DNA from: a virus
Strand: one strand, 5' to 3'
Virus record (IMG/VR): IMGVR_UViG_3300037487_000968
Coordinates: 62,001-126,000 of that record
Length of the DNA stretch: 64,000 nt
The position numbers and the translations under genes were made by a program. The notes below the pieces were generated by a model that was not told the DNA's origin, did not search any database, and saw nothing but the letters and a program-made list of their open reading frames with translations. This document shows positions 1 through 35,550 of this stretch, piece after piece (the first letter of the stretch is position 1; each line of letters opens with the position of its first letter).

Positions 1-2
1 AG

Positions 3-236
3 TGTTTTGGTAATTCTTCGTTTGTACCATCGTTTGTACATATGAAATCGTTATTACAAGATGTAGATGAAAAATATATAACCGAAGATTGGACAGAACA
101 CTTCCCTACACACTTTGCAGACAATGGGACTTTTAAGATTGGTAACTACGAACAAACATTGCCCTTTCATTATCAAATTAAATCTTGGTTAAAAGATGAT
201 ATGATTACAACTCTAGAAAAAAGGCTCGATATATGA
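3..236 (+). CDS. C-terminal part of an unknown protein, cut by the window edge
   Basis: The frame is open from the first bases with no stop before the Met at 42, so the gene probably starts outside the window. The visible end is rich in aromatic and charged residues with no domain I recognise. Its stop overlaps the next start by 4 bp (ATGA), which places it in the long plus-strand operon. It could be the tail of an SGNH- or glycosyltransferase-like protein such as those downstream, but nothing proves that. Confidence 0.5.
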   Translation, partial: CFGNSSFVPSFVHMKSLLQDVDEKYITEDWTEHFPTHFADNGTFKIGNYEQTLPFHYQIKSWLKDDMITTLEKRLDI

Positions 237-841
237 AACCTTTAATATTAATGTATGTCTTCTATGATAAGAATGGAGATATTAAAGCAATCACACCTGT
301 ATTAAATGATACCTATGCGGCTGACTTTTCTGTGGCAACTTTTCCACTGTCCGAAGTAGAAATGTTTTTAACCGCACAGAAAAACACGTTCGATTATCAG
401 GTAAAGGTAGTTGAAAAAATAACAGGTATAACCTATTCCCTTGTTAAGAAGCAATTAAATATTAATTATACAAGAACATTAAATACATATCTTACCAAAG
501 TCGATGAAGTATTACCTAATGGTAATTCCGTTATTATTACTAACGATACAGTTAGGGGCGGTGTATTTATTGAAGTGAACAAGGCATTAAAAGAAGTGCA
601 TAAGCAGATAGCATCTTCCGAAGAGCAAGAAGATGTTGTTAATAATTTCTTCAATAGTGGTCCATCAATTGTGTACCTTACTAAAGAAAATAATCCTTAT
701 CATTTATTATTTTCGTTTTCATTCTTGCCGAAAACATTATTCAGTGTAGATAAATTGTATTTTCCTTATAAAGGGTCATATACTAATACAAGTGCCTATA
801 CGAAAAAAATAATAGTCGGGTACGGATTTAAAGAAAAATAA
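233..841 (+). CDS. Hypothetical protein, 202 aa
   Basis: Unknown function. The ATG overlaps the preceding stop by 4 bp, indicating translational coupling. The product appears soluble, with no signal peptide or clear membrane segment. It is AT-rich like its neighbours and stops 16 bp before the glycosyltransferase-like gene, so it is probably part of the same polysaccharide or metabolite operon. Confidence 0.6.
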   Translation: MKPLILMYVFYDKNGDIKAITPVLNDTYAADFSVATFPLSEVEMFLTAQKNTFDYQVKVVEKITGITYSLVKKQLNINYTRTLNTYLTKVDEVLPNGNSVIITNDTVRGGVFIEVNKALKEVHKQIASSEEQEDVVNNFFNSGPSIVYLTKENNPYHLLFSFSFLPKTLFSVDKLYFPYKGSYTNTSAYTKKIIVGYGFKEK

Positions 842-857
842 CATAGGAATAAACCAA

Positions 858-1862
858 ATGGCATTTACACCAATGAGCGAATTATCAGTTATTTTTATCA
901 GTTATGATGAAGATAATTGCGAAGAAAATTGGGCTGATTTACAGAACAAGGTGCCCTGGGCGCAACGTGTCCACGGTGTAAAAGGATCTGATGCAGCACA
1001 TAAGGCTGCTGCAAATTTATCAGATACAAGTAGATTCATTTCAGTTGATGCCGATAATATTGTTGATCCTAATTTTTTCGATATGGAATTAGATTATGAT
1101 CATCCTAAATTATCAGGTAAGGCAGTCAGCTGGGCAGCAAAAAATTATGTAAATGGTTTAGAATATGGCAACGGTGGCCTAAAATGCTGGCCTAAACAAT
1201 ATGTTTTAGATATGCGTACTCACGAAAATTCCGATAGTACTGATGAAAGAAATCAGGTAGATTTCTGTTGGGAAGATAGTTATGTACAGATGGCAAATCA
1301 GTACAGCACTACCTACCCAAATGGTAGTCCACGGCAGGCCTTCCGCGCAGGATTCAGAGAAGGTGTTAAGATGAGTTTAGATCAAGGTGGTAAAGTGCAT
1401 CCAGATAATTTCAAGAAAACCATCTGGTGGGGAAATTATAAACGTCTTATCACATGGTGCAGTATTGGTGCCGATGTAGAAAACGGCTTATGGTCTATGT
1501 ACGGTACTCGTTTAGGTTGTCAAATGACTAATCTAACAGATTGGAATTATGTAAATGTTAGAGACTTTGATTATCTAAACAATCTATTTACAAACGAAAT
1601 AATGCCTAAATTCGAAACAAAGGCAGATGTAACTACCGCGGAAAAATGCTATAAGACTGGCTATGTCTGGGATACACATAAATTACAGAATTCAATTAAC
1701 GAGTTAGGTGTTGATTTAAGAAAATGTCTTGGATTAGAACTTGCTGAATTAGACAAAATCGGTAGCAAATTCTATAAGGCAGCTCAATATAACACTCCTC
1801 GAATGAATAAAATGTTCACAGAAGAAGAGTTATACGAACTTCGAAGAATTAATAGCAAATGA
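858..1862 (+). CDS. Glycosyltransferase-like protein, 334 aa
   Basis: The first 80 residues follow the pattern of a nucleotide-sugar-binding fold. A hydrophobic strand (LSVIFISYDED) is followed by FISVDADNIVD, whose D-x-D matches the metal and nucleotide-sugar site of GT-A glycosyltransferases. The rest, rich in Trp and Tyr, is not diagnostic. A Shine-Dalgarno AGGAA precedes the ATG, and the stop overlaps the methyltransferase start by 4 bp. Assignment to a GT class is inferred. Acceptor and sugar are unknown. Confidence 0.55.
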   Translation: MAFTPMSELSVIFISYDEDNCEENWADLQNKVPWAQRVHGVKGSDAAHKAAANLSDTSRFISVDADNIVDPNFFDMELDYDHPKLSGKAVSWAAKNYVNGLEYGNGGLKCWPKQYVLDMRTHENSDSTDERNQVDFCWEDSYVQMANQYSTTYPNGSPRQAFRAGFREGVKMSLDQGGKVHPDNFKKTIWWGNYKRLITWCSIGADVENGLWSMYGTRLGCQMTNLTDWNYVNVRDFDYLNNLFTNEIMPKFETKADVTTAEKCYKTGYVWDTHKLQNSINELGVDLRKCLGLELAELDKIGSKFYKAAQYNTPRMNKMFTEEELYELRRINSK

Positions 1863-2455
1863 TAGATTCTTCGTTTATTATTAAATACACAAATGCATTA
1901 TATTCTACTCCTGCAGAGTTTGCACCCAGATATGACGAATTTCGTGATATGTTTAGTTCGGGTCAGGTTCTTAGTAAAGAATGGATTGTAGAACAACTCT
2001 ACAATATAGATCATACATATTATAATAAAAAATTAATCATAGTTGGTGCTTGGTATGGCACACTAGGTATGATGCTTAAGAAAAAGTTTCCTAGTACAAA
2101 GGTAACAATGCTAGATATAGATCCTCGTTGTGAGAAATTTATTCATAATATGATCTATGATAATCCAGATTTAAAAAGCATAACCGCAGATATGTATAGA
2201 CATTCTTATGTCGAAGATGTTATAATAAATACAAGCTGCGAACATATCAACAATGTTCGAGAATGGTTATCTTTAATTCCTAAGGGTCGAATAGTTGTTT
2301 TACAATCAAACAATTATCTTAAAGGCAATGGGCATGTCAATTGTGTTAATAGCACAGAAGAATTTATAGAACAGGTAGATTTATCGGATGTCTTATATAC
2401 AGGCGAGTTAATAATGCCGATGTATACAAGATATATGATAATAGGTAAAACATAG
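1859..2455 (+). CDS. Class I SAM-dependent methyltransferase-like protein, 198 aa
   Basis: Residues around 60-90 carry the Rossmann SAM-binding signature: a beta strand and glycine loop (LIIVGAWYGTLG), then an acidic strand end (VTMLDIDPRC) that would bind the SAM ribose. The protein is short, about one methyltransferase domain. It sits directly before a run of radical-SAM enzymes, so it may methylate an intermediate of the same pathway. Substrate unknown. Confidence 0.6.
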   Translation: MIDSSFIIKYTNALYSTPAEFAPRYDEFRDMFSSGQVLSKEWIVEQLYNIDHTYYNKKLIIVGAWYGTLGMMLKKKFPSTKVTMLDIDPRCEKFIHNMIYDNPDLKSITADMYRHSYVEDVIINTSCEHINNVREWLSLIPKGRIVVLQSNNYLKGNGHVNCVNSTEEFIEQVDLSDVLYTGELIMPMYTRYMIIGKT

Positions 2456-2464
2456 AGGGTATTT

Positions 2465-3874
2465 ATGAATGCAGATAATGAACAATCTCGTATAGAGTTT
2501 ATTAAGAAACGAGTTGATAAAGAGATTGGACCGACCTTTTGTTTGGCTAAATGGCACCATGTAACTATGTATCTGCAATCAGGAGAAACACATAGTTGTT
2601 ATCATCCTAAACCACATAAGATACCACTCGGCGAAATTGCTATTAACCCATCGGCTTTGCACAATACAGAAGAGAAAAAGCAAGAACGAAAGTTAATGTT
2701 AGAAGGTGGTAAACCTGTTGGATGTACCTATTGTTGGAATATAGAGGATATGGGTCCCGATTATGTAAGTGACAGACATATTCGTAATGCTTCTATCTTT
2801 AACGAAGAGAGACTTAAGGAGTGTGCAACCGGATCGTGGGATCAGAATATTAATCCACAGTATATAGAAATCAACTTTGGAAACGAATGCAATTTCAAAT
2901 GCGGTTACTGCCATCCTAAATATTCAACACGCTTCTATAACGAGATTAAAGAGTTTGGCCCTGTTACGACTGTCTCGAATCATCGTTGCGATATTGATTG
3001 GATGAGATTATATCAACGCGAAGACGAAAATCCTTATGTAGATGCATTCTGGAAGTGGTGGCCGGAACTTCGTAAGACATTGACTATTATGCGTGTGACC
3101 GGTGGGGAACCATTATTACACCGAAGCACATGGCAGTTATTTGATAAATTAGAAGAAGACCCTTTACCACATTTAGAATTAAATATAAACAGTAATCTAG
3201 GTGCTAAACATGCCTTGGTGAAAAAGCTGACAGAGAAGGTAACAAGTCTGCTAAAAGGTAATAAAATAAAAAGCTTTAAATTATTTACTAGTTTGGATAC
3301 TTGGGGACCGCGTGCTGAATATATTCGTACCGGTTTAGATTTAGTACTATGGGAAAGAAACTTTTATGAATACCTAAATCAGACTAATAGTCCTATTACA
3401 TTCATGATTACCTTTAATTTATTATCAGTAACAACCTTTAAATCTTTCTTAGCAAAAATATTAGAATGGCGCAAACAATATAAATCAAACGGCATGCCCG
3501 GTGAACAACAGCACCGTATTAGATTTGATACACCGTATCTACGTGATCCATTGCAGTATGACATGAACATATTACCTAAAAAAGACTTTATGCCATTTAT
3601 GCTCGAATCGTTGAAGTTTATGGAAGATAATGTCGATAATGAAGATACTGATAAATTTACCAGTATAGAATATGAAAAATTTAAAAGAGTTGTAAATTAT
3701 ATGGATACAACAATATACTCTGATGAAAAATTAATCACAGGGCGCCGAGATTTCTATAACTGGTTTTCGGCCTTAGACGCTCGACGCGAAACAAAGATAT
3801 TATCAGTATTTCCGGAGATGAGCGATTTTTATCAATTGTGCGAAGAGATAAATCGCTCACACCCCAAGCTATGA
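2465..3874 (+). CDS. Radical SAM enzyme with N-terminal twitch domain, 469 aa
   Basis: The radical-SAM cluster motif CNFKCGYC is at residues 142-149, with the GGEP SAM-binding motif further on. The first 90 residues carry extra cysteines (C26, C45, C87, C90) that resemble the N-terminal twitch or auxiliary-cluster domain of the N-twitch radical-SAM family. Such enzymes cleave SAM to a 5'-deoxyadenosyl radical. The substrate is not predictable. Its stop (TGA) overlaps the next ATG, and it is the first of five consecutive radical-SAM genes. Confidence 0.85.
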   Translation: MNADNEQSRIEFIKKRVDKEIGPTFCLAKWHHVTMYLQSGETHSCYHPKPHKIPLGEIAINPSALHNTEEKKQERKLMLEGGKPVGCTYCWNIEDMGPDYVSDRHIRNASIFNEERLKECATGSWDQNINPQYIEINFGNECNFKCGYCHPKYSTRFYNEIKEFGPVTTVSNHRCDIDWMRLYQREDENPYVDAFWKWWPELRKTLTIMRVTGGEPLLHRSTWQLFDKLEEDPLPHLELNINSNLGAKHALVKKLTEKVTSLLKGNKIKSFKLFTSLDTWGPRAEYIRTGLDLVLWERNFYEYLNQTNSPITFMITFNLLSVTTFKSFLAKILEWRKQYKSNGMPGEQQHRIRFDTPYLRDPLQYDMNILPKKDFMPFMLESLKFMEDNVDNEDTDKFTSIEYEKFKRVVNYMDTTIYSDEKLITGRRDFYNWFSALDARRETKILSVFPEMSDFYQLCEEINRSHPKL

Positions 3875-5070
3875 CAATCGATCATAATATAGTTTGTCTC
3901 ATGCCATGGATGCATATGCATGTATGGCCTAACGGCGATACCTTTCCTTGCTGCATGAGTGATTCTAGCATTGTATTTGGTAATGTTCATAGAGAAAATA
4001 TCAACGAATTAATTAATAATAATAATTATAAGACACTAAGAAAACAAATGATACAGGGAGAAAAACCTGCGGCCTGTTCACGATGTTACGAATTGGAAAC
4101 TTCAGCCAATAGTTGGACACTAAGAAAGAATAGCCTATCTAGTTTTAAAGATTATTTACCTCTTATAGGGGAGACCAACAAAGACGGTAGTATAGATAAC
4201 TTTAAAATGAGATATATGGATATTCGCTTCAGTAATTTATGTAATATGAAATGTAGAACCTGCGGGCCCGATTTAAGTAGTACATGGCATGAAGATCAAG
4301 TAGTTATGTATCCGGAATATTCGTCTCCTAAGTTCATAGATTTAAAAACCAATCCCACTTTTATGGAGCAATTAATACCTCATCTGAATACAATAGAGGA
4401 GGTATATTTTGCCGGTGGTGAGGCATTAATAACACCACAACATTATGAAATATTAGATTATTGGTTGGCCAAAGGCAAAACTGATGTGAAATTGCGTTAT
4501 ACAACAAACTTTAGTGGGCTAAAATATAAGAATAAATCTATTTTAGATTATTGGAAAAAATTTAAAGATGTAAGAGTTGCAGCAAGCTTAGATACATATG
4601 GCGTTCGTGCAGAGTATGCTAGAAAAGGTACAAATTGGGATAAAATTATTCAAAATCGAAGTATAATGATTGAAAGTTGTCCCGATGTTTATTTTGAAAT
4701 TACACCTACAGTAAGTATTTTTAGTGTTCATAGTCTATTTAATTTTCACAAAGAATGGGTAGAAAAAGGTCTTCTAAATATAAACAATATTAGAATTAAT
4801 ATTTTAACTCATCCTCGGTATTTCTCTATTACTATATTACCCGAAGAATATAAAGAAGAGATATGTAATTTATACAAGAAGTACGAAGAATGGCTAATAA
4901 ATAATGGTGCACAGAAACATATAATAAATGCTATTCGTGGTATAGTAAGTTACATGAATAGTGAGAATCATACAGAATTATTAGAACAATTCAAAACAGA
5001 AATCAACAGAATCGACAATATTAGAAATGAAAATTTTAAAGATATATACCCGGAGTTAAAAAATTTATGA
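3871..5070 (+). CDS. Radical SAM enzyme with N-terminal twitch domain, 399 aa
   Basis: CNMKCRTC at residues 124-131 is the 4Fe-4S site, and FAGGEAL is the GGE motif. Cysteines C9, C27, C28, C69 and C72 form the N-terminal auxiliary site, and CLMPW is typical of this family. I chose ATG at 3871 because it forms an ATGA overlap with the preceding stop and starts just before the conserved CLMPW. The longer frame begins inside the upstream gene. Substrate unknown. Confidence 0.85.
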   Translation: MTIDHNIVCLMPWMHMHVWPNGDTFPCCMSDSSIVFGNVHRENINELINNNNYKTLRKQMIQGEKPAACSRCYELETSANSWTLRKNSLSSFKDYLPLIGETNKDGSIDNFKMRYMDIRFSNLCNMKCRTCGPDLSSTWHEDQVVMYPEYSSPKFIDLKTNPTFMEQLIPHLNTIEEVYFAGGEALITPQHYEILDYWLAKGKTDVKLRYTTNFSGLKYKNKSILDYWKKFKDVRVAASLDTYGVRAEYARKGTNWDKIIQNRSIMIESCPDVYFEITPTVSIFSVHSLFNFHKEWVEKGLLNINNIRINILTHPRYFSITILPEEYKEEICNLYKKYEEWLINNGAQKHIINAIRGIVSYMNSENHTELLEQFKTEINRIDNIRNENFKDIYPELKNL

Positions 5071-6425
5071 GTACTACAGTACCTGAAGATATTCCTCAAG
5101 AAAAAAGAATAGAATGGTTATCTAAGAATTTAGATAAATTTTGTGTGTTACCGTGGCTTAATTTAAATACAAACACAGATGGTAACATAAAGCTATGTTG
5201 TAATATTCAGTTAGAACATTTAGTAGCAGATGCTGATACCGGCACATATAACCTAGGTAAACACGATATAGAGACAATATGGAATAGTGTCTATATGAAA
5301 TATACGCGCAAAATGCACCGTCGTAATTTCGGTTCTACCGAATGCAAAGAATGCTATAAGGCAGAGAAAGTGTCCGGGCATAGTCCACGGGTAGGGCAGA
5401 ATGCATTATGGATAGAAAGACAGGACCATGACGAACAGCTCAAAAACCATCTTGTTGATGTTTCGCAAGAGGAGCCGATGGTTAATCCGGTACAGTTACC
5501 TACTAGCCTAGAACTTAGATTAGGTAATCAATGTAATCTAAGATGTATAACATGCTGGGGCATGAGTAGTTCTTTAATACATGAAGAAAGATCGGCATAT
5601 CTAAAGAATAATTTATTAGATGACCCAAAACTAATATGGCTAAAGTCGAGGTGGAAAAACGAAATAGAAACTGTTGAGAAGACAGAAGTTAGTGAATGGT
5701 TTGATACTGACATATTCTATAATAATTTCAGAAAAATGGCGCCTACTCTTAGACGTCTATACACAACCGGCGGCGAACCTACAGTAATTAAAGCAAATTA
5801 TAAGATGTTACAAATGTTGCTAGATGCAGGAAATACTGACTGTAGAATAGAATTTACAAGTAATATGACTAACTGGAATCCATTATTCTACAGTAATTTA
5901 TCTAAATTTAAGAATGTCGAAATACAAATGAGTATAGATGGCGTAGATGAAATTGGGGAATATATCAGATACCCGAGTGACTTCTCTAAAGTAAGAGAAA
6001 ATATTGATAAGGTAGTAAAAATAGCATCAAGAAATCCTAATTGGAGTATTAAATGCTATACCGTATTGCAGGCACTAAATTATAAACATCTTACACCCAT
6101 ATGGGATTTATTAAATAACATAGGATTTAAGTACTGTAAGAGTATAGACTGGTGGCCAATAACATTAGTTGCGCCAGCGTTTTTATCATTAGGCGCTGTA
6201 CCGTTAGAAACACGCACTGAATATATGCCAGAATTGCAGAAGGCTTTTGATTTATTCAAAGAGTTAGGAGACGGTCGTTTATATCTAGCAGATGATACAA
6301 TTAGTGCATGTAAAGAATCTATGTTAAATGTATCATATCAGCCCATACTAGAATCTAATCTTGCAACTTTTATAGAATTTACAGATAAACAACGAGCAGT
6401 AACTAATAAATTAGGAAAAATATGA
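5067..6425 (+). CDS. Radical SAM enzyme with N-terminal twitch domain, 452 aa
   Basis: The 4Fe-4S motif CNLRCITC is at residues 156-163 and TTGGEPT is present. N-terminal cysteines C26, C44, C45, C93 and C96 repeat the auxiliary-cluster pattern of the two preceding genes (CVLPW then CC then C-x2-C). It overlaps both neighbours by 4 bp. The three N-twitch paralogues differ strongly outside the motifs, which suggests successive distinct reactions rather than recent duplication. Confidence 0.85.
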   Translation: MSTTVPEDIPQEKRIEWLSKNLDKFCVLPWLNLNTNTDGNIKLCCNIQLEHLVADADTGTYNLGKHDIETIWNSVYMKYTRKMHRRNFGSTECKECYKAEKVSGHSPRVGQNALWIERQDHDEQLKNHLVDVSQEEPMVNPVQLPTSLELRLGNQCNLRCITCWGMSSSLIHEERSAYLKNNLLDDPKLIWLKSRWKNEIETVEKTEVSEWFDTDIFYNNFRKMAPTLRRLYTTGGEPTVIKANYKMLQMLLDAGNTDCRIEFTSNMTNWNPLFYSNLSKFKNVEIQMSIDGVDEIGEYIRYPSDFSKVRENIDKVVKIASRNPNWSIKCYTVLQALNYKHLTPIWDLLNNIGFKYCKSIDWWPITLVAPAFLSLGAVPLETRTEYMPELQKAFDLFKELGDGRLYLADDTISACKESMLNVSYQPILESNLATFIEFTDKQRAVTNKLGKI

Positions 6426-7405
6426 TAGACGACACATTGATAGAAATTAAACCTAAGAGTAGGCCGTACGTTAGTATAACCTGGCAGGTCAGCGATTTCT
6501 GTAATTATAAATGTAAATACTGTAACCCTGGTAATTGGGCCGGCAATAATGCTAAGAACAGGAATGAGTCAGAATATGAACAGGTACTCTATAACTTAAA
6601 TTATCTCCTTGGCCATTATGAAACTCGCGGGTATAATGCATTTAAGTTTTATTTTAGCGGAGGCGAACCAACAGTATGGCCACATCTGCTTCCGCTCATT
6701 ACCTGGTTAAAAGGGAGACTTGATGATCCGCAAATAGGTATCAATACAAATCTTAGTACATCTACGGCTTGGTGGAAAAAGAACCATCATTTATTTCACG
6801 ATGTTGTTGCAAGTTATCATATTGATTTTGCCAATACAGAGAGATACATAAATAATCTTATTTTCTTACAGGATAAAGTTAATTATCTATGCAGCAGAAT
6901 GATGATGCAAGAGGATAAATTTGATGAAATAATATTATTCGGTGAAAGAGTAAAATCTACATTGCAAAATTATAATATAGAATGGGTACCGTTATTCGAC
7001 GAAATTAGTGTCGATACCGGGCCGTGGAAATATAAAGAACAGCGTATGTATGATTTCTTTGAGACTCACAGTTTTGATACTCAGACATTATTAAAGAAAC
7101 CTGCAAGTAGTCGATGGGCTTGCGCCAGTAATGAAATATATGATTCGGGTAGAATAATTCCGTTGAACGGGAATAGATTAGTAGCGGAACGTAGGAACTT
7201 TTTCGAAGGTTGGCAATGTAATGTTGATGAAAGTTTATTTATTAATAGTGCAGGTAATATCACTGCTGCTAGTTGCGGCCAAGGTCCCGCACTAGGTAAT
7301 ATATATGATACCGTTAATGCTATGTCGCAACCTATTATATGTAAGAAAACGCAATGTACGTGTGGTACAGATATTCTTATAACTAAATCTCGCAAAAATG
7401 GCTGA
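6422..7405 (+). CDS. Radical SAM enzyme without N-twitch domain, 327 aa
   Basis: CNYKCKYC lies at residues 27-34, near the N-terminus, with FSGGEPT after it. Unlike its neighbours it lacks the N-terminal cysteine region and instead ends in clustered cysteines (CKKTQCTCG), a possible SPASM- or twitch-like auxiliary cluster site. ATGA overlap upstream, 8-bp overlap downstream. Substrate unknown. Confidence 0.82.
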   Translation: MIDDTLIEIKPKSRPYVSITWQVSDFCNYKCKYCNPGNWAGNNAKNRNESEYEQVLYNLNYLLGHYETRGYNAFKFYFSGGEPTVWPHLLPLITWLKGRLDDPQIGINTNLSTSTAWWKKNHHLFHDVVASYHIDFANTERYINNLIFLQDKVNYLCSRMMMQEDKFDEIILFGERVKSTLQNYNIEWVPLFDEISVDTGPWKYKEQRMYDFFETHSFDTQTLLKKPASSRWACASNEIYDSGRIIPLNGNRLVAERRNFFEGWQCNVDESLFINSAGNITAASCGQGPALGNIYDTVNAMSQPIICKKTQCTCGTDILITKSRKNG

Positions 7406-8651
7406 CCCTATCTACTGTGCCTTAGCATTTAATTCAGTTAGCTTCGGGCCGTTTGGTGGCAGTAGACCATGCTGTGCAGTTGATACACAGTTTTGGCAAG
7501 AAAGTAAAGACATACTTTCTGACTACGATGACCAAATAATACCATGGTTTAATAACCCGTCTTTAGTAAAGTTACGAAAGACATTATTAGAAGGTAAATG
7601 GAGTCCGGTGTGTAATATGTGTAAAACACGTGAACAACACGGACAACCTAGCACAAGAACAATATTCAATGAAGAATTAACAAGAATTGAAACTCGTACC
7701 AAACTAGATTGGAGAGAAGATAAAAGTATTTTAACCAATCTATCTAAGGTATTTCTATTAGATGTTACTGTTGGTAATAAATGCAATAGTGCATGTCTAA
7801 TGTGCAATCCAGCAGCTAGTTCTTTATGGGCTAAAGAACAAGAAATAATTACAGGGAAAGAATTTGAATGGATATCGAAAAATTGGTTTGCCGAAGAGCA
7901 TGTACCTGCATTATTAGATCACTTACCTAATTTACGTACCATACAATTTGTTGGTGGAGAACCCACAATTAGTCAACCACATATTTTTCTGTTAAAAAGA
8001 CTGATAGAATTAGATCGTGCTAAGAATATTTCGTTAGGATACGTTACGAATCTAACCGGTGTATCAGCTGAATTATTAGAACTGTGGGGGCACTTTGGTA
8101 CTAAAAATATCACCATTAGTGTTGATGGTGTTGGCCCTGTCAACGAATATATTAGGTACCCGTTCAGCTGGAATAAAGTAGTAAATCAATTATCTAACCT
8201 TAAAGAGATAGCGAAGAATGGGGGTTATAATATAGGTTTAAGTCATACCGTAACTTCACTTAATCTATTAACAATAGATCAATTATTAAGTTGGTGGGAA
8301 GAGGAAGTAAAAGATGGATCGGGTGTATCTACATGGTTACCACATATACAATGCGTAAATAATCCTGATCATTTTAATCCAATTTATATGCCGCGGGATA
8401 TGAAGGAAAAGGCTCGAGAAAGTCTACTCAGGGTAGAGGAAATGTGTATAAAAAATAACCTTGGTCCAAAATATACAGCAGCAATGGATAATATAAGAAC
8501 AAATATATTAGATAAAGATGCACCCGAAGGGCCGGTATATGCACGTACCATGTGGTTAAAAATGCAAGACTTCTTAATTTCTTTAGATAAATACAGAAAT
8601 AGAGATATATTTGAATACTTACCTTTTATGAAAGAATACTGGATCAACTAA
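7398..8651 (+). CDS. Radical SAM enzyme with N-terminal twitch domain, 417 aa
   Basis: The core motif CNSACLMC is at residues 129-136 and the SAM motif VGGEPT follows. The N-terminus has C7, CC at 25-26 and C-x2-C at 72-75, as in the other N-twitch members. It closes the run of five adjacent radical-SAM genes. The long loop between N-domain and core is unrelated in sequence to its neighbours. Substrate unknown. Confidence 0.85.
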   Translation: MADPIYCALAFNSVSFGPFGGSRPCCAVDTQFWQESKDILSDYDDQIIPWFNNPSLVKLRKTLLEGKWSPVCNMCKTREQHGQPSTRTIFNEELTRIETRTKLDWREDKSILTNLSKVFLLDVTVGNKCNSACLMCNPAASSLWAKEQEIITGKEFEWISKNWFAEEHVPALLDHLPNLRTIQFVGGEPTISQPHIFLLKRLIELDRAKNISLGYVTNLTGVSAELLELWGHFGTKNITISVDGVGPVNEYIRYPFSWNKVVNQLSNLKEIAKNGGYNIGLSHTVTSLNLLTIDQLLSWWEEEVKDGSGVSTWLPHIQCVNNPDHFNPIYMPRDMKEKARESLLRVEEMCIKNNLGPKYTAAMDNIRTNILDKDAPEGPVYARTMWLKMQDFLISLDKYRNRDIFEYLPFMKEYWIN

Positions 8652-8653
8652 AT

Positions 8654-9241
8654 ATGCCAAATCCTAATTTAACTAACATACTTAATTTAGCAATCTGCCT
8701 ATATGGACTAAACGAAGATAAAGAACTCGTACAAAGAATAAGAAAAGAAAATGATAGAATTTTCCCAGGACACCGATTAACTTATTTCGAAACTACAAGT
8801 GACCCAATTCTTCACAGAAATTTGTGGCTAGCGAGCTTTAAGAAACGCCAGCATGAATTAAACAATATCGTTGAATTTGATGCATGTTTAGCACTTAATA
8901 TCGAAGATAAATGGGTAACTGATTTTCTGTATTCTCCAACTAATCCAGTATTTGACTTAATAATAAATCCTTTAACATTTAAGAATATGTCAGATGAGAA
9001 ATTATATTTCGTTAAAGGCGCCTACAGTAAGGGATTTACAGTTATCTCACCTAGTGTATTTTTTGCATCATCGTTGCTATTTGATCTAGCGTGTAATTTC
9101 AGTATTGCAAGGCCGACATTTCCGAAGGATAGGGCAAGAGAAACAGATGATGAGGATTTTTATTACTTTTTAAAAACTCTTAAAATAAGAACGGAGTGTA
9201 CGAACTATGAGAATAGCAGTTTGTTTAAGCGGACAACCTAG
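8654..9241 (+). CDS. Hypothetical protein, 195 aa
   Basis: No family recognised. It starts 2 bp after the radical-SAM gene, and its 3' end overlaps the next gene by 35 bp in another frame, so it is coupled to both. The pattern LAICLYGL near the N-terminus recalls the first beta strand of the glycosyltransferase-like neighbours (IAVCLSGQ), so it may be a diverged member of that group. That is only a guess. Confidence 0.6.
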   Translation: MPNPNLTNILNLAICLYGLNEDKELVQRIRKENDRIFPGHRLTYFETTSDPILHRNLWLASFKKRQHELNNIVEFDACLALNIEDKWVTDFLYSPTNPVFDLIINPLTFKNMSDEKLYFVKGAYSKGFTVISPSVFFASSLLFDLACNFSIARPTFPKDRARETDDEDFYYFLKTLKIRTECTNYENSSLFKRTT

Positions 9242-10004
9242 GGTTATTGATTATGCAGCCCAGTCGATTCTAAATTTCTTTTCGGGCGAACATCAGTATG
9301 ATTTTTTTTGCCATACATGGGATTATAATTCGTATAAACGTAAGAAAGAGAATCCCGAAATTGGTGAGTTTCCTGTATGGTGGGAAAAAGATGTTAAGGT
9401 AGATGTAGAACAATTAAAGAACTCTCTTGCATTATTTAATCCTAAGAAGTATATCATTCATGATGCACATGTATTAGGTAAACGATTTATATGGGATTCA
9501 TTAATGTATTCGTTAATGTATGCAAATAATCTTAAAAAACAATACGAAATAGAAAATAATTTTAGATATGACTTCGTTGTTAAATCTAGGTATGATACTA
9601 TTTTTTCACCCGACCGTAAGTTTGTGTTAAACAAACGGGCAGATAAAGATAATTATTTAGATTCTTTCTGCATTCATGATGCCAGAATGACTTACGAATA
9701 TAATAGGGTGAACACATCGGATAATGTATTTTATGGAACATCGTTGGGGATGGATATGATATGCGATGTATATAGACATATTTATATAAAGATGAAAAAT
9801 ATAAGATTAGATGATTTTGAATATCTAGGACCCGGGTCGTATATATCCGATTATGCCGAAGGTAGAAATCTACGATTAATAGCAGCAGCGAGTGAACTAT
9901 TTGAGACTGTATATAGAAAAGAAATGATACCACAAGATCCTGTTGCTAACTTCCCTGCCTTTCGCGAATTTAACCAATCTATGTATAGAAGGATATATGA
10001 TTAA
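9207..10004 (+). CDS. Glycosyltransferase-like protein, 265 aa
   Basis: It begins IAVCLSGQPR and continues with FFCHTWDYN and DFVVKSRYDTIF, an arrangement seen in phage and viral glycosyltransferase-like proteins with a GT-A fold. The N-terminal half of the gene at 10731 has the same arrangement (IAVLIAGEYR, CYFSTWTQ), so the two are paralogues. The stop overlaps the next start by 8 bp. Donor and acceptor unknown. Confidence 0.55.
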   Translation: MRIAVCLSGQPRVIDYAAQSILNFFSGEHQYDFFCHTWDYNSYKRKKENPEIGEFPVWWEKDVKVDVEQLKNSLALFNPKKYIIHDAHVLGKRFIWDSLMYSLMYANNLKKQYEIENNFRYDFVVKSRYDTIFSPDRKFVLNKRADKDNYLDSFCIHDARMTYEYNRVNTSDNVFYGTSLGMDMICDVYRHIYIKMKNIRLDDFEYLGPGSYISDYAEGRNLRLIAAASELFETVYRKEMIPQDPVANFPAFREFNQSMYRRIYD

Positions 10005-10734
10005 ACTATTCTATGCAGTTGGCGATTCTTTTGTATTTGGGCAAGAAATGGGCCCCCCAATTACACCTCAAAATTTACATATATTTGACGATTATAAAAG
10101 ACGTCATTGTTATACCGGTATAATATCTGATGCACTAAAGATAGAGAATTATAAAAATAGTGCCTGCCCTGCCGCATCTAATGAACGATCGTACAGAATG
10201 TTAATAAACGACATAACTACCGCAATGTTGACATATAAGCCCGATGAAATTTTTGTAAATATAGGATTAACAAGTGCAACTCGACGAGAATTTTGTATGA
10301 ATGAAAGAGGGCATTACTACTTACATATGCATACATATGAACCGTCACTTGAGCATAATATACAGTGTCATGACTTATGGAAAGTTATAGTTAAAGACTT
10401 TAATCACTCATTAGGCGACGAAATGTTTAATGCCATGCTAATCTTGGGTATGCAAAATTTCTTATATGTTAATAAGATTCCGTACCTAATGTCTTACTCT
10501 TTACGTACACCCCATGGCATAGCAGTAACCAATGAGTGCGTGCCTGCACCTGTGTTAAACCAAATACGTTCGAGAAGATTTTTTTCGTGGCCGTCCTTCA
10601 TGGAATTCGTTTTAAATAATTCCTACGATAGGGGACCCGGGCACCATCCGTTAGAAGTGGGTCACTTAGCATGGGCCGAACTTCTTTTAAGGTATATAAA
10701 TGACAATAATTTATTAGATAATTCGGATCTATGA
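9997..10734 (+). CDS. SGNH-hydrolase-like protein, 245 aa
   Basis: YAVGDSFVFG near the N-terminus is the GDS block of SGNH/GDSL esterases. A late GPGHHP segment can supply the catalytic His. Such enzymes often add or remove O-acyl groups on sugars. I start at ATG 9997, which is right before the GDS strand and overlaps the previous stop by 8 bp. The longer frame starts inside the upstream gene. The ATGA overlap at its end couples it to the next gene. Confidence 0.6.
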   Translation: MIKLFYAVGDSFVFGQEMGPPITPQNLHIFDDYKRRHCYTGIISDALKIENYKNSACPAASNERSYRMLINDITTAMLTYKPDEIFVNIGLTSATRREFCMNERGHYYLHMHTYEPSLEHNIQCHDLWKVIVKDFNHSLGDEMFNAMLILGMQNFLYVNKIPYLMSYSLRTPHGIAVTNECVPAPVLNQIRSRRFFSWPSFMEFVLNNSYDRGPGHHPLEVGHLAWAELLLRYINDNNLLDNSDL

Positions 10735-12539
10735 AGATAGCCGTATTAATTGCAGGAGAATATAGGGAATTTGCAATTGCACATAAATTTTGGACATTCC
10801 TGGGTTGGCCAGATGTAGATTGCTATTTCTCTACATGGACACAGAGTTGTCGCGTTACAGACGATGTGCATATGCCATATACCTGCGAAATCATAACTAC
10901 TGAAAATATTCGAAGTCTAATAAATGTAATAGATCTAGAAATTACAGAATTAGTTGTGGAGGAATTAGGTAATCACTTCACAACATGGAAGATGATTAGT
11001 AGATGGAAATCTGCAATAAATTTATTAAGAAAATCAAAGATTCAGTATGATCGTGTTATATTAATACGCCCGGATATTGCTTTAGCGTACGATGAAAAGT
11101 TATTTAAAGAATTTATATATCAAAGTTTTAATGATAATGACTTATATGGTATAACTAATTCAGACCTTAATGTGCCATTTCCGTTAAAAGATCGAGGGCA
11201 AATGTCCGACTTGATGCTCTTAGGCACACAAAATAGTGTCATGAAATTGCTTGATTTACCCACAGATGGTTTCTTTAAAATACAAGATACGAAGAGGATT
11301 CCTATATTAATTGATGTTCATGCATACCTTGCTGAACATTGTTCAAAACTGTATAGTAGATTTATGAATATGCCGATAGCTGATCAGTGCATTGTTCGTA
11401 CCAATTGCAGGACATTAACTGATCCTACTTTCTATGATTGTAAATTAAAAGCAAAAGAATGGTGGGAGAAAAAACATAAAAAATTTTACTGGATGGGCGG
11501 AAATATATGGGATTATAAGTTATATCATGATACACATCCGGAAAGTAGAAGGCAAAGAACATTCAACACAGATAATATAAATCTCTGGGGAAAGATTGAT
11601 TTATCGTGTCATTGGGATAGTCCCCGCGGTAGCCAATCTTGGCACGCTCCAGACACAGAAGAAATATTCTTACGTAATAGTGCAGATAAGCACAATCAAC
11701 ATAAGATCACCTACGGAAAAACTGATATTACATATGACTACAATTCTTTCGGATTTCGTACAGATTCGGGGCCTAAAGAATTTGAAGATATAGGAACGAA
11801 TCCTGTATTTATGGTCGGCGGCTGTTCTATAACCGAAGGGATAGGACTACCCGAACACCGCATCTGGCATAGTTTCTTATACAATAGGCTTGCTGATCAT
11901 TGTAATAGACCTATGGTAAAACTCAATATGGGCAAAGGCGGTATCAGCATTGCAACAACAATACGATACATTTATACAATGATAGAACATTATAATGTGC
12001 ATCCTGATTTACTATATATTGTATTACCACCAGTAAGTAGGCAGGAATTAATAGTTGATAATCATAACGACTATGTACACCATTATATACCGGGTTTACC
12101 ACCGCCATTAAATGCCAGCCGTTTATTAAATAATGCTATAAATGTATTAAATAAAAATATAAATTATAGACAATTATATCATAATTGCTATCGTGATTTA
12201 TTATTTCTTAAATGGTTTCTTTTAGCCAAAAATATTCCGTGGTTCTTTAGTTCCTGGTCAAATGATTTTGCAGAAGAAACTATTAAACAATTAATACCCG
12301 CCGCTAGTGGGGCAGATTATACTATTCCGTCAGAGTTATTGATTAATTATATACCTGCGAAAATTTTATATAACGAATATATAAAACCCGATAATATAAA
12401 ATTTCCGCAGACGATTGCTAGAGATTATGTACATTATGGTCCCAATTCGCATCTTGATTTAGCAGATCAGATTTATGATAAATTAAGTAAACATAACAAC
12501 TTTAGGCATATATTAGAAAAATGGAGAAAAGATGACTGA
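10731..12539 (+). CDS. Fusion: glycosyltransferase-like domain plus SGNH-hydrolase-like domain, 602 aa
   Basis: Residues about 1-270 resemble the glycosyltransferase-like gene at 9207 (IAVLIAGEYR, CYFSTWTQ, DRVILIRPDIA). From about residue 340 a second unit begins with VFMVGGCSITEGIGLP, where GCS replaces the usual GDS of SGNH enzymes, and it ends with YGPNSHLD, a plausible catalytic His block. The fusion joins two activities that occur as separate genes on both sides, which supports one pathway. The Asp-to-Cys change in the GDS block may alter or abolish hydrolysis. Confidence 0.6.
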   Translation: MKIAVLIAGEYREFAIAHKFWTFLGWPDVDCYFSTWTQSCRVTDDVHMPYTCEIITTENIRSLINVIDLEITELVVEELGNHFTTWKMISRWKSAINLLRKSKIQYDRVILIRPDIALAYDEKLFKEFIYQSFNDNDLYGITNSDLNVPFPLKDRGQMSDLMLLGTQNSVMKLLDLPTDGFFKIQDTKRIPILIDVHAYLAEHCSKLYSRFMNMPIADQCIVRTNCRTLTDPTFYDCKLKAKEWWEKKHKKFYWMGGNIWDYKLYHDTHPESRRQRTFNTDNINLWGKIDLSCHWDSPRGSQSWHAPDTEEIFLRNSADKHNQHKITYGKTDITYDYNSFGFRTDSGPKEFEDIGTNPVFMVGGCSITEGIGLPEHRIWHSFLYNRLADHCNRPMVKLNMGKGGISIATTIRYIYTMIEHYNVHPDLLYIVLPPVSRQELIVDNHNDYVHHYIPGLPPPLNASRLLNNAINVLNKNINYRQLYHNCYRDLLFLKWFLLAKNIPWFFSSWSNDFAEETIKQLIPAASGADYTIPSELLINYIPAKILYNEYIKPDNIKFPQTIARDYVHYGPNSHLDLADQIYDKLSKHNNFRHILEKWRKDD

Positions 12540-13335
12540 TAAAAAAACAATTGTGGTTTGCGGGGACAGTTTTAATTACGGAATAGGTTGCGTAAATCAA
12601 CATACCCAGCCGTATGGAGTATTAACAGCCAAACATTTTGACTGGGATTTAGTTAGACTAGCAAGAGGTAGTGCAAGTAATTATGTTATACACCTACAAG
12701 GAAAATATGCAGCAAGAATGAATCCAAAACCGCATCTTGTAATACTAGGAACAACATCATATGATAGGCTAGAGTGGTTGGCAACAGGTAAAGAATTTAA
12801 AGGCGAACCCCGCCTTGAGGATGTTAATTATCATTTATATCCGCCACACCATCATCCTCAACCATTACACGATGCGCCAATGCCGTACCATCTTGCTGGG
12901 GATCCAAACTATCAACCTAAGATATTGAGCGAACAAATGGTCGCTATACCTGATTTTTTACATCATATCAAAACCTCGGGCTATGCAATAGATTATTATA
13001 AAAGATTACATAGTGAATCTATAGAAAAATTAAACCTAATTAATACCTATTACTTTGATATATTTGACTCTCTTATAAAAAGGGATTATGATGTAGGGGT
13101 AATATCAATGGCATATAGAATAATAAAAAATGCCGGCATTAATTGTGTTATATGCTCGCAAGAAAGTCAGTTTAAAGAATTAGTGGAAGATGAGAGAGAT
13201 TATTTCTTCCCTGATTGGGGTAGATGTACTGCAACCTGGCCAGATTCGGTAGGTAGTCTGCACACTGGCGAAGGCGGTCACAAAGATATAGCCAATCGTT
13301 TAATAAGTCATATTGAAACATATAACTTAGCCTGA
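12532..13335 (+). CDS. SGNH-hydrolase-like protein, 267 aa
   Basis: IVVCGDSFNYGIGC at residues about 6-19 is a good block I of SGNH hydrolases. LHTGEGGH near the C-terminus can hold the His. An internal HHHPQP-type stretch is unusual. It overlaps the fusion gene by 8 bp. Likely role, by family, is acyl transfer to or from a glycan. Confidence 0.6.
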   Translation: MTDKKTIVVCGDSFNYGIGCVNQHTQPYGVLTAKHFDWDLVRLARGSASNYVIHLQGKYAARMNPKPHLVILGTTSYDRLEWLATGKEFKGEPRLEDVNYHLYPPHHHPQPLHDAPMPYHLAGDPNYQPKILSEQMVAIPDFLHHIKTSGYAIDYYKRLHSESIEKLNLINTYYFDIFDSLIKRDYDVGVISMAYRIIKNAGINCVICSQESQFKELVEDERDYFFPDWGRCTATWPDSVGSLHTGEGGHKDIANRLISHIETYNLA

Positions 13336-13343
13336 GAATTATA

Positions 13344-14090
13344 ATGAAATTAGCTATATATGGAGATAGTTTTGCAGCACATCAATTGCATATTAAGGAT
13401 AATAACGGAAAAATATTACAAGAACATCTGGGTCGAGGTTGGCCAGAGATTTTGGAAGATTATCACGAAGTTAATAATTTTGGATCGTCCGGCACAGCAT
13501 TTATGTACAGCTACGAATTATTCCTAAAGAATTATAAAGATTATGATTTGAATATTTTTATTGCTACTTCACCACAAAGAACATACGTAAGAGCACTAGA
13601 TGGAAGATTAGTATTTGGGATAGACTTTGTGGATGAAGAGGTTGAACGAATTAAGAAAGCGCCATTTTATAATAGAAAATATATACACTTAGAGATACTA
13701 AAGAGTGTAAGAATATATTTAGAATTATGGCAGGATATAGAGTTATTACGTTACGCTCAACATGCAATGGTTAATAATTTATGGAATCTTGCCCCTAATA
13801 CACTAGTTATACCTGCATTTGAAGACTCGATAGAACAAACATGTTTTAATCTAAATGATTTATCTAGACAAGAATTAGATAATGTTGAAAATGGCTTATA
13901 TAGAAAACTTAACTATCCTGTAATGAAATGTTTAAGGAAGTGCCATTTTTCGGAAGAAAATAATAAGATATTAGCAAAATATATATTATCTGCAATAGAA
14001 TCAAATCAGAAGATATTTGAACTCGGCCATGCCGAGTTGGCGGTGCCTTCTAAAAATTTTAATTTTTATATGGAAGACAGTGAATTATGA
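13344..14090 (+). CDS. SGNH-hydrolase-like protein, 248 aa
   Basis: LAIYGDSFAAHQ at the N-terminus is the catalytic-Ser block, and the FGSSGTAF segment fits the Gly block. No clear Asp-x-x-His block is visible near the end, so activity is uncertain. It is the third consecutive SGNH-like unit. Its stop overlaps the cupin start by 4 bp. Confidence 0.55.
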   Translation: MKLAIYGDSFAAHQLHIKDNNGKILQEHLGRGWPEILEDYHEVNNFGSSGTAFMYSYELFLKNYKDYDLNIFIATSPQRTYVRALDGRLVFGIDFVDEEVERIKKAPFYNRKYIHLEILKSVRIYLELWQDIELLRYAQHAMVNNLWNLAPNTLVIPAFEDSIEQTCFNLNDLSRQELDNVENGLYRKLNYPVMKCLRKCHFSEENNKILAKYILSAIESNQKIFELGHAELAVPSKNFNFYMEDSEL

Positions 14091-14521
14091 AAAAAGTGTC
14101 AAAGCCATGGGGGTACGAGTTATGGATAGCCGATGGAGTCGATACTCCATATGCAAGTAAGCGTATATTATTTAAGGCAGGGAATAGAACTAGTCTGCAA
14201 GTCCACGAATACAAAATTGAAACAAATTATGTTCTTAGTGGATCGGGAATATTACATCGCAGTAAAGAGCCATTAGATCTAATTGTATTCATGCAGAATG
14301 GGATGACAGCACAACAGGTAAAAGATTACGAAGACACCTTTGAAGTAGTAGATCTGCATGAAGGGGTAATATTCAACATAACACCGGGATATGTGCATCG
14401 GGTTATTGCCATTACAAATTTAGAATTCATGGAAACAAGTACAACAGAGCTCGATGATGTTATTAGATTACAAGATGACACAGGAAGAGAACACGGTAGG
14501 ATATTAAAAGAACATGAATGA
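14087..14521 (+). CDS. Phosphomannose-isomerase type II-like cupin, 144 aa
   Basis: KPWGYELW followed by a strand with LQVHEYKIETNYVLSG matches the cupin domain at the end of ManC/type II phosphomannose isomerases, with His, Glu and Lys positions available for metal and substrate. It is one isolated cupin, without the GDP-mannose pyrophosphorylase part, and overlaps a nucleotidyltransferase gene by 8 bp. Probably a sugar-phosphate isomerase or epimerase of the pathway. Confidence 0.7.
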   Translation: MKKVSKPWGYELWIADGVDTPYASKRILFKAGNRTSLQVHEYKIETNYVLSGSGILHRSKEPLDLIVFMQNGMTAQQVKDYEDTFEVVDLHEGVIFNITPGYVHRVIAITNLEFMETSTTELDDVIRLQDDTGREHGRILKEHE

Positions 14522-16040
14522 TCTAACCGTTCTTATACTTGCTGCAGGCTACGGTCGCCGCATGGGCCCGTTCTCAAGAATGGTCAATAAGAGCCTTGTT
14601 CCTTACGATAACAAGCCATTAATTAGCCATATAATGGCTAAATTTGACCCTAATACAAAATTTGTTATCGCGTGTGGCAACATGGGTCAACAAGTTAAAG
14701 ACTATATGTTAAATGTACATTCTGAGAAAAATATAACTTTTGTTGATATACCCGAGTTTGATGAAGGCAATACGGGACCTGCCACAACTATAAAATATTG
14801 TGCAGAATATTTGCCAGAAAAATTTCTATGGATTACATGCGATACCTTGTTTGAATTTAATCTTGCTGATAAACTAGACCATAATTGGATTGCTGTATCG
14901 CCTGTAGATAGCACGGTGGCGCAGGATTATTGTTGGATAGAAAGAGATGGAGATACCATTGTAAAAATTCATAATAAGAAAAGATCTTCACATGCTGTTG
15001 ATGCATTTATTGGACTGATGTATGTCAACGATTCACAATTTATTAATAACCTTATTGACTCTAAAGCAAAAGATGCATATGAAGGGTTTAACAACATCGA
15101 TCTAAGAGCTTATACAGTAAGATCTTGGCAAGATTTTGGAACATATGAAAAATGGAAAATGCTTAGTGAAGGCTTACCTGAAGTAAGTTTTCCAAAGCCG
15201 GATGAACTATTCTACAGAGACAACAATAAAATTATTAAATTTACAACTGATGAAAAATTAGCACGCTTAAGGCACGAAAGAGCTCTTCTAAATCCATTAT
15301 GTATGCCCGCTAATGTTGTTCATAAAGGCAACTTTCTTATATATGATTATGCTGTTGGCGAAACACTATATACATGCCTCACACCTGAATTATTTAACAA
15401 ATTTATGAATTGGGCAGAAACAAAATTATGGAATCATGCAGGGACATTCGGTGATACATTTGGATATGCAGATAAGTTTTATCATAAGAAAACATTAGAG
15501 CGTCTAGAAAAATTTAGAGTAAAATATAGTACGTGGGTAGAATTTTCTATAGTAAACGGCCGAGATGTAAAAACAATAAAAGAATACATGTCTGAAATCG
15601 ACTTCACATGGCTAGCATCAGAAACAGAATGGAGATTTACTCACGGGGATATGCAGTTTGATAATATTATATATAATTCTATAACCGAACAATTTACAGC
15701 GATAGATTGGAGGACAGATTTTGCAGGAGACCAATACGGCGACATGTATTATGATTTAGCCAAGATGCTAGGTGGTCTATACCTAAGTTATAAATCTATA
15801 AAAGAAGATAAGTTTAGTTATGAAGAAAATGATGATCAGGCTATCATCGACTTCCCTTCAGTTGATCATGTAAATATATATGTATCACAATTGCAGGAAC
15901 GGGTTATGGCAATGGGTTATGATTGGCAAAAAGTAAAAACACTCGTGCCTATTATATATCTTAACATGGCTCCCTTACATACCGCACCTTTTGATAAATT
16001 CTTAATCGCATTGGCACAACTTTTCTTCTCGCAACTATGA
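14514..16040 (+). CDS. Fusion: sugar/choline-type nucleotidyltransferase plus APH/choline-kinase-like domain, 508 aa
   Basis: Residues about 4-230 carry LILAAGYGRRMGP and NKSLVP, the nucleotide-binding loop and following Lys of NTP transferases. From about residue 260 a kinase-like domain follows, with THGDMQFDNI (H-x-D-x4-N catalytic loop) and AIDWRTD in place of the DFG-like metal loop. The pairing recalls LicC- and LicA-type activities in one chain: phosphorylation of a small alcohol or sugar and its activation with CTP or another NTP. Substrate not determinable. Confidence 0.72.
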   Translation: MNDLTVLILAAGYGRRMGPFSRMVNKSLVPYDNKPLISHIMAKFDPNTKFVIACGNMGQQVKDYMLNVHSEKNITFVDIPEFDEGNTGPATTIKYCAEYLPEKFLWITCDTLFEFNLADKLDHNWIAVSPVDSTVAQDYCWIERDGDTIVKIHNKKRSSHAVDAFIGLMYVNDSQFINNLIDSKAKDAYEGFNNIDLRAYTVRSWQDFGTYEKWKMLSEGLPEVSFPKPDELFYRDNNKIIKFTTDEKLARLRHERALLNPLCMPANVVHKGNFLIYDYAVGETLYTCLTPELFNKFMNWAETKLWNHAGTFGDTFGYADKFYHKKTLERLEKFRVKYSTWVEFSIVNGRDVKTIKEYMSEIDFTWLASETEWRFTHGDMQFDNIIYNSITEQFTAIDWRTDFAGDQYGDMYYDLAKMLGGLYLSYKSIKEDKFSYEENDDQAIIDFPSVDHVNIYVSQLQERVMAMGYDWQKVKTLVPIIYLNMAPLHTAPFDKFLIALAQLFFSQL

Positions 16041-16732
16041 GTCAGTTTTTCAGTTTAAGTAGATATCCTGGCAAGACAGGAGAGTACTTCTTTAACTCAA
16101 TGTTCAAGAAATTTAGCATGCCTCATACATATACAGCTCTAGCATGTGATAATATTGCCGACGGTGTTAAAGATATGGCAGAAAGAAATGCTGCAGGATT
16201 TAGTGTTAGTATGCCATTTAAATCCGATGTAATAAAAGAAATAAACTTTATCGAAAATACAGTAGCTCGGTTTAATAGCTGTAACACTGTTTATCATGCG
16301 TCCGATGGATGGCACGGATACAATACAGATTACTTTGGTGCATATCATGTACTTCAACAGGTACCCAATAATGCAAAAGTATCCATCCTTGGCGACGGTG
16401 TTATGGGATCAATGTTTAAGAAAATATTAGGTGATGGAGCAACCATATATGCAAGAAAGTTAGGTAATTGGGAACAGAGATATAGGGCCGATGATGTCAT
16501 AATTAATTGTACATCTTTTGGTACAGCAAGAGAGGATTCACCCTTCAACATTCTTCCGTCTGCAAATCTAATAATAGATCTTGCAATCAAATCAAATCAG
16601 TTAGAACAACAATCTATTGCTGCAGATGTTAAATACACAGGCGGTATGGAATTCTATAAGCATCAGTTTATAAGACAGTTTGGAATTTATACAAAGAAAG
16701 TGATTACAATAGAAGATGTAAATAGCATATGA
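16037..16732 (+). CDS. Shikimate-dehydrogenase-like reductase, 231 aa
   Basis: GFSVSMPFK (K62) corresponds to the GxNVTxPxK catalytic-Lys motif of shikimate dehydrogenases. NTVYHASDGWHGYNTDY holds the Asn and Asp (about N83, D98) that bind the substrate, and VSILGDGVMG is the NADP-binding loop. It is shorter than typical AroE (about 270 aa). In this sugar-like operon it more likely reduces a related polyol or quinate-like intermediate than serves aromatic synthesis. Confidence 0.7.
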   Translation: MSQFFSLSRYPGKTGEYFFNSMFKKFSMPHTYTALACDNIADGVKDMAERNAAGFSVSMPFKSDVIKEINFIENTVARFNSCNTVYHASDGWHGYNTDYFGAYHVLQQVPNNAKVSILGDGVMGSMFKKILGDGATIYARKLGNWEQRYRADDVIINCTSFGTAREDSPFNILPSANLIIDLAIKSNQLEQQSIAADVKYTGGMEFYKHQFIRQFGIYTKKVITIEDVNSI

Positions 16733-17208
16733 TTAAACACATAGTAATGGATGTAGACGGTGTCCTTAATACAGGACATTTTTTATATAGTGATAAAGGA
16801 AAGATATTTAAAGTCTTTGGTCCGCATGATAAAGATGGTATTAAAATTGCTCAAAAATTAGGTCTTACTATTGATTTCATAACAGCTGATAAATCAGGAT
16901 GGGAAATAACATGCGCTAGATTAATTAAAGATTGGGGATTCACAAAGACTAGTGTTCATTTAGTTACTGAAGAAGATAGAATGGCATGGATCGAAGAGAG
17001 GTATAACCCGGAAGAAGTGGCATATATAGGTGACGGAATTCACGATGCGCCTATATTACAAAAAGTAGCAATAGGCATTGCACCCAATAGTGCCAGAAGA
17101 GAAGCAAAGGAATCAGCTAACTATATTACAGAAAGCAATGCCGGTTCGGGTGCTGTTCTTGATGCTATTCTTATAATACAAAAGATATTAACAAATGAAA
17201 AATTATAA
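16729..17208 (+). CDS. KdsC-like HAD phosphatase, 159 aa
   Basis: MDVDGVLNTG with D8 and D10 is HAD motif I. A late GDGIHDAPI is motif IV. The length and lack of a cap domain fit the KdsC family (C0 HAD phosphatases acting on 3-deoxy-octulosonate-8-P or N-acylneuraminate-9-P). It overlaps both neighbours. With a downstream aldolase and an upstream nucleotidyltransferase it suggests synthesis of a ketose-acid-like sugar. That link is inference. Confidence 0.8.
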   Translation: MIKHIVMDVDGVLNTGHFLYSDKGKIFKVFGPHDKDGIKIAQKLGLTIDFITADKSGWEITCARLIKDWGFTKTSVHLVTEEDRMAWIEERYNPEEVAYIGDGIHDAPILQKVAIGIAPNSARREAKESANYITESNAGSGAVLDAILIIQKILTNEKL

Positions 17209-20497: not shown

Positions 20498-20928
20498 TAA
20501 TAAATTGTAATGGTGATAGTTTTGTATCGGGAGAAGAATTAGGCGACAACTCTTTTCCTAATTACCCTGGTAATTATCCAACTATACCCGATAAGAAATT
20601 AAGCGAAATAGTTCAATGGACTAATTTTATAAACACATTACCATTTGATCAAATATTAGAATTAAGAAATTTATATCGTACTTTTGCATTGCAATATAAT
20701 TGGCGGCCTTATAAATCGAACACGCCAAATACTGCATTAGATAACTTTAATGATTTAAAAGACCTTGTAGAATATTCAAAATTTAAATACTCGTTTGATA
20801 TAAATGAAGTAGCATTAAATAGTAATATAAAAAATATATATTGTCCAAAAGGTCATTATATTGAACAGATACACGATTTGTTAGCTGAACAAATTAGTAA
20901 TAAAATAGCTCATTTGGAGAATATATGA
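20494..20928 (+). CDS. Shortened SGNH-like protein, 144 aa
   Basis: It starts INCNGDSFVSGEELGDN, the SGNH block I, and ends with CPKGHYIEQIHDLL, which resembles the His block at the end of these enzymes. The middle is about 100 residues shorter than in the SGNH-like neighbours, so the Gly and Asn blocks are missing or reduced. The frame is intact. It could be a remnant after internal deletion or a small specialised form. 4-bp overlaps on both sides. Confidence 0.5.
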   Translation: MIINCNGDSFVSGEELGDNSFPNYPGNYPTIPDKKLSEIVQWTNFINTLPFDQILELRNLYRTFALQYNWRPYKSNTPNTALDNFNDLKDLVEYSKFKYSFDINEVALNSNIKNIYCPKGHYIEQIHDLLAEQISNKIAHLENI

Positions 20929-35263: not shown

Positions 35264-35268
35264 GGGGT

Positions 35269-35292
35269 TAGGGGCTACGGCCCCTACTCTTT
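35269..35292 (+). terminator. Intrinsic terminator of the 34760 gene
   Basis: TAGGGGC, TACG-type loop, GCCCCTA, then CTCTTTT, 6 bp after the stop codon. Confidence 0.72.
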
Positions 35293-35298
35293 TGGCCG

Positions 35299-35485: not shown

Positions 35486-35550
35486 GGACGTGGGCCGTAG
35501 CTGCAAGGGTCTGCACAACTTGCATAGCTTAGTTAAAGTCAAAAGATAAG

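Follow-up and report, generated by a model that had tools for sequence, protein, structure and literature searches.

Five consecutive radical-SAM genes, here called A to E, form an ordered array in a T4-like phage, downstream of a conserved core of tail-fibre and three glycosyltransferase-like genes, and the array is best read as a block exchanged between phage lineages. We see about an even chance that it is a transferable cassette whose twitch-type radical-SAM oxidases together modify a glycoprotein or sugar chain from the linked glycosyltransferase-like proteins. The DNA analysed, referred to as the window, comprises 64,000 bases (62001-126000) of a virus record of 210,450 bases. Portal, major head protein, head protease, DNA polymerase and baseplate of this record matched T4-type tailed-phage PHROGs. 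The record is thus an uncultivated 210-kb T4-like phage, as expected from an earlier note on this DNA that had called the genome phage-like, and bacterial contamination was ruled out by the structural genes.

All five reading frames are intact on the plus strand between 2465 and 8651 and overlap at their junctions by 4 to 8 bases (A, 2465..3874; B, 3871..5070; C, 5067..6425; D, 6422..7405; E, 7398..8651). The CxxxCxxC and GGE motifs that the earlier note had reported for five consecutive genes were read directly as NECNFKCGYC and GGEP in A, NLCNMKCRTC and GGEA in B, NQCNLRCITC and GGEP in C, DFCNYKCKYC and GGEP in D, and NKCNSACLMC and GGEP in E. For B the start is most likely 3871 and not the GTG at 3838, where the listed ORF begins, because the ATGA overlaps the stop of A and the preceding residues are missing in about 98% of the family. 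Four of the genes had been proposed to carry an N-terminal twitch domain, and the profile search agreed. A, B, C and E belong to NF033640 (N_Twi_rSAM; curated cut-off 170 bits) with 310, 395, 257 and 277 bits and nearly the whole profile covered, whereas D reached only 36 bits and is classed as a radical SAM of a different subfamily. The Pfam radical-SAM matches of A, B and D stayed under cut-off, and a SPASM match (PF13186) was found at residues 20-84 of B.

None of the RiPP-maturase families reached its cut-off against A-E. Weak cross-matches to many maturases and cofactor enzymes were obtained, and these would fit ordinary metabolic or cofactor enzymes (heme- or cofactor-type) that aid host metabolism and are located here by chance. 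We consider such a role improbable, since every cross-match was far below cut-off and divergent paralogues in a fixed order beside glycosyltransferase and fibre genes are a misfit with a single cofactor step.

In a conservation alignment of 314 homologues (370-600 aa) the seven cluster cysteines, four N-terminal ones and those of CxxxCxxC, were invariant together with GGE in 314/314 N-twitch homologues. The array orthologues of locus L010 were 59-72% identical with pN/pS of 0.21-0.36; for A, B and D the identity was 72% and synonymous sites were saturated. The cysteine and GGE motifs are therefore not chance, and a sequencing artefact or pseudogenes were ruled out by the intact frames and the purifying selection on the orthologues. 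Recent tandem duplication was also ruled out, as the window paralogues were 21-23% identical to B, against 59-72% for the L010 orthologues. In D, the C-terminal cysteines C266, C285, C307, C312 and C314 were invariant in 49/49 sequences, and so was the CxxxCxxC and GGE core. The C-terminal set resembles a C-terminal twitch/SPASM domain, which suggests that D is not cluster-poor. Since D keeps these five cysteines, though it is without the N-twitch, an auxiliary Fe-S cluster is probably present in all five enzymes. The residue after the second twitch cysteine was Tyr, His or Phe in the A-class and Cys in other large groups.

The N-twitch family profile matched the C-terminal twitch of BtrN (2-deoxy-scyllo-inosamine dehydrogenase, PDB 4M7T) at its four cysteines (E 2.4e-8). 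From this alignment the N-twitch domain resembles a twitch that has changed ends, being C-terminal in BtrN and N-terminal in A, B, C and E. The sugar-nucleoside enzyme BlsE was among the radical-core matches of the profile. SkfB and other C-terminal twitch/SPASM maturases also match the array enzymes in the radical core, but the N-twitch proteins carry the cluster domain at the opposite end; D ends in CxC, like the SkfB auxiliary site CX33CXC. A predicted model of B (pLDDT 94.7) was near no solved structure, and its best fold matches (CteB, a tetraether synthase, anSME, SkfB, viperin and BlsE) had a TM of about 0.5 or less.

The four N-twitch proteins of the window were aligned and used to scan viral contigs, which gave at least 564 relatives. 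The best 80, i.e. those most similar to the query, were retained and represented 71 distinct viral loci with a mean of 4.3 N-twitch genes. In the synteny search proposed earlier, the same kind of array recurred across these loci. An A-class paralogue stood first in 58 of 60 arrays, compared with 14.1 expected under random order, a count that carries no formal probability as the loci are mutually related. The tree resolved orthologue sets with a repeating order, 0-13-15-16 in the window (A being group 0), L010, L012 and L016, and 0-3-1-2 and 10-6-11-12 in other lineages. In L024 and L060, ORFs some 820-840 aa long scored like two N-twitch units. A scan of 84,980 genomes with one narrow pattern confirmed 5 loci, including the phage contig L115. 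By tblastn (E 1e-5) no match was detected in 50,697 phage records for the A enzyme or for the core families fam0, fam1 and fam12, which is perhaps why the system has been overlooked. Two large records had 21 N-twitch profile matches each in several separate clusters, G006 (the L020 record, 518 kb; 16 over cut-off) and G014 (the L092 record, 342 kb).

The conserved neighbourhood exceeds 2465-8651. It starts some 1.9 kb before the window with fam12 (L004:142-501) and fam2 (L004:498-1403), followed by the glycosyltransferase-like fam1 (L004:1385-2236), whose 3' end lies at 1..236 on the plus strand of the window. On the same strand follow an unknown protein (233..841), whose slot between fam1 and fam0 holds fam20, fam28 or fam9 in relatives, and fam0 itself (858..1862). 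fam0 was present in 54 of the 71 loci, directly upstream of the array in 49, and fam1 and fam2 in 50 and 47. One fam1 member matched PF11051, and fam2 had no family match. The best fold matches of fam0 were HddC and a PBCV-1 glycosyltransferase with TM below 0.4, so that fam0 may be called GT-A-like at fold level only; no fusion of fam0 with an N-twitch unit was seen. A methyltransferase-like gene (1859..2455, plus strand; weak PF05175 match below cut-off) lies between fam0 and A and was found in 8/71 loci. A second fam0-like protein of the same phage (L006:12650-13714, 355 aa) is 31% identical to that of the window and is encoded on the plus strand amid minus-strand genes. Family 18 (L039:15590-16600) was a recurring neighbour in 12 loci, amidinotransferase-like by eye and without a Pfam match.

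When fam0 was used as the query in a converse search, N-twitch genes were found within three genes in 28 of 61 loci with downstream room, and many array-less fam0 loci had a second fam0 copy in place of the array. The array is therefore optional cargo at a recurring site, present in about half of the core-searched loci.

Fibre-type genes (L003:14765-19998) are contiguous with this core in our phage, and in 41 of the 62 loci that had room, fibre-type structural families lay upstream on the same strand. One protein amid these tail-fibre genes (L003:16594-18150) shows subtilisin-like motifs by eye. The enzymes could instead modify proteins or peptides directly, in the manner of RiPP-type SPASM/twitch maturases, with tail-fibre side chains, or those of an unrecognised precursor, as the target. 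The position of the fibre families and the nearest solved folds, CteB, anSME, SkfB and SuiB, are in line with this. We nevertheless regard it as possible but unlikely, because no precursor peptide was recognised nearby (a systematic small-ORF search was not part of this), the fibre-protein composition did not differ between array-bearing and array-less loci (a weak test, 60 against 8), and glycosyltransferase linkage was seen also without fibre genes. A co-variation of fibre proteins with the array was rejected on the same weak comparison.

The linkage to glycosyltransferases was also found elsewhere. In the isolated Vibrio phage K566 (OZ196521) four N-twitch-type genes are interleaved with two GT8 genes; its N-twitch sequence is about 26% identical to B over 60% of B, and no fam0, fam1, fam2 or fam12 match was detected among the proteins tested. 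In a Bdellovibrionaceae chromosome N-twitch genes are linked to GT2.

Comparison with two other phages points to exchange of the array. In the polymerase, our phage shares 82% identity with G011 (locus L097) and 49% with G005 (L010). Nucleotide collinearity with the distant L010 was restricted to 2537-8427, whereas with the close L097 it covered the flanks, up to 2448 and then from 14381. G011 had one N-twitch gene over cut-off, and B-E were missing at the array site. Because the distant relative is collinear only over the array and the close one only around it, the pattern is best explained if phage lineages exchange the five genes as one block.

Downstream of E, on the plus strand, we found variable cargo with phrog_13607-like and GDSF/SGNH-like genes (8654..14090; PF19547 at 9943-10734) that is not common to L010. 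The following block (14087..18181, plus strand) encodes a cupin, an NTP-transferase/kinase fusion, a shikimate-DH-like protein, a HAD protein and a KbaZ-like aldolase, and is also present in L097 and L111, there without the array. A B12-binding radical SAM (18314..20497, plus strand; PF04055, PF02310), of a family seen in 28/71 loci, and a NodU/CmcH-type carbamoyltransferase (20925..22397, plus strand; PF16861, PF02543) complete the region. As L097 and L111 have no B12 gene between the same aldolase and carbamoyltransferase genes, this gene is a separate insertion. The earlier note had joined the five genes with methyltransferase, glycosyltransferase-like, SGNH-like and cobalamin-type genes into one uncharacterised pathway. 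The methyltransferase-like, GT-A-like, GDSF-motif (SGNH-like) and B12 radical-SAM genes were indeed found and form a glycan-type neighbourhood. A single pathway was not borne out, since the five genes appear to be a discrete cassette that moves independently of the genes downstream. Beyond this region (22400-64000) the GC content climbs from ~35% to 46-50% near 28 kb and short ORFs are numerous, chiefly on the minus strand; one of them (35268-35525, minus strand) contains repeated LTLPIRDPAMPLLALANIG units.

As to mechanism, the fully ligated auxiliary clusters of BtrN and anSME have been proposed as acceptors of the second electron, leading to two-electron oxidations (PMC9012708, PMC6231123), and our proposal of glycan or glycoprotein oxidation draws on this. 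By analogy with these two enzymes, a 5'-deoxyadenosyl radical would abstract a hydrogen from the substrate and the auxiliary cluster would accept the second electron, so that each step would be a net two-electron oxidation, e.g. of an alcohol to a ketone, or a bond formation. The paralogues may work at successive or different positions. The array enzymes would thus be BtrN-like oxidases that modify a glycan or glycoprotein built with the help of the linked glycosyltransferases of the tail-fibre/host-recognition region, and the product could decorate virion fibres or the infected-cell surface, which is the least certain step.

This reading is favoured by the complete retention of the catalytic cysteines, the leading position of the A-class, the exchange as a unit, the cysteine alignment with BtrN and the presence of BlsE among the core matches. 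A glycan or glycoprotein as substrate is suggested by the constant glycosyltransferase-like partners, the independent GT8 and GT2 linkages and the sugar-type genes nearby or in relatives. Against the reading speak the fold-level match of fam0, the missing family match of fam2, the peptide maturases CteB, anSME and SkfB among the best full-length fold matches of B, and the separate exchange of the downstream sugar-nucleotide genes. A more specific version, in which the cassette is dedicated to tail-fibre (glyco)proteins of the phage itself, modifies them in a fixed order and, when exchanged, alters the decoration, seems rather doubtful to us.

Phages glycosylate DNA, and the glycosyltransferases and radical enzymes might together act on phage DNA in base hypermodification. 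Among 11 array-bearing records tested, this one counted, 8 had a thymidylate-synthase-family gene. In this phage (G000), however, PF00303 (thymidylate-synthase-family hydroxymethylase) had no match, and the cassette-sharing G005 is likewise without such a gene; hmC-type modification was ruled out on this ground, the record being possibly incomplete. The array moreover lies among tail genes and not replication genes, and we hold DNA as the target to be highly improbable.

An IscU-type Fe-S scaffold gene (PF01592; L008:15501-15896) was found in this phage. It was present in 3 of 11 array-bearing records including this one (2 of the 10 others), which ruled out an obligatory link of the array to a phage IscU. 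The phage also has a QueE-like radical-SAM gene (L008:637-2487, record about 186,637-188,487) split by an intein-type domain (PF14890) that is inserted exactly at its CxxxCxxC. Consensus scans for promoters and terminators were uninformative; the T4-type late promoter TATAAATA gave 1 match, on the opposite strand, versus 7 expected.

Parts of this picture are already known, namely the named enzyme family and the radical-SAM cassettes in phage host-recognition islands. The host recognition cluster of pelagimyophages is described as an island of tail-fibre genes that also holds glycosyltransferases and radical-SAM cassettes, and its glycosyltransferases have been proposed to alter the host surface (PMC7029224). 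The region studied here is of this type, with fibre-type and glycosyltransferase-like genes in a T4-like phage; the parts of that account available to us describe no array of paralogues in a set order, nor the site of one or its exchange as a unit. Among T4-like environmental viral genomes, 12 radical-SAM genes have been reported in one genome together with IscU/ATC genes, and Fe-S assembly genes were linked with phage radical-SAM genes (PMC5332604); an IscU-type gene is common to our phage, and no array or glycosyltransferase linkage was described there. As far as the literature searched shows, a multi-paralogue array with a set order is new, as are its recurrent position next to the tail-fibre/glycosyltransferase core, the exchange of the array as a unit and the conserved C-terminal cysteines of D. 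If true, fibre tailoring by a radical cassette would be a virion modification that we did not find described in that literature.

The N-twitch family NF033640 has no assigned reaction, though some giant phages have many members. In the array studied here several divergent members stand in a set order, and as they move together, next to glycosyltransferase-like and tail-fibre genes, their role becomes testable. The cassette probably makes unusual modified sugars for recognising or altering the bacterial surface, and the context of the array suggests that radical chemistry takes part in phage-host surface recognition.
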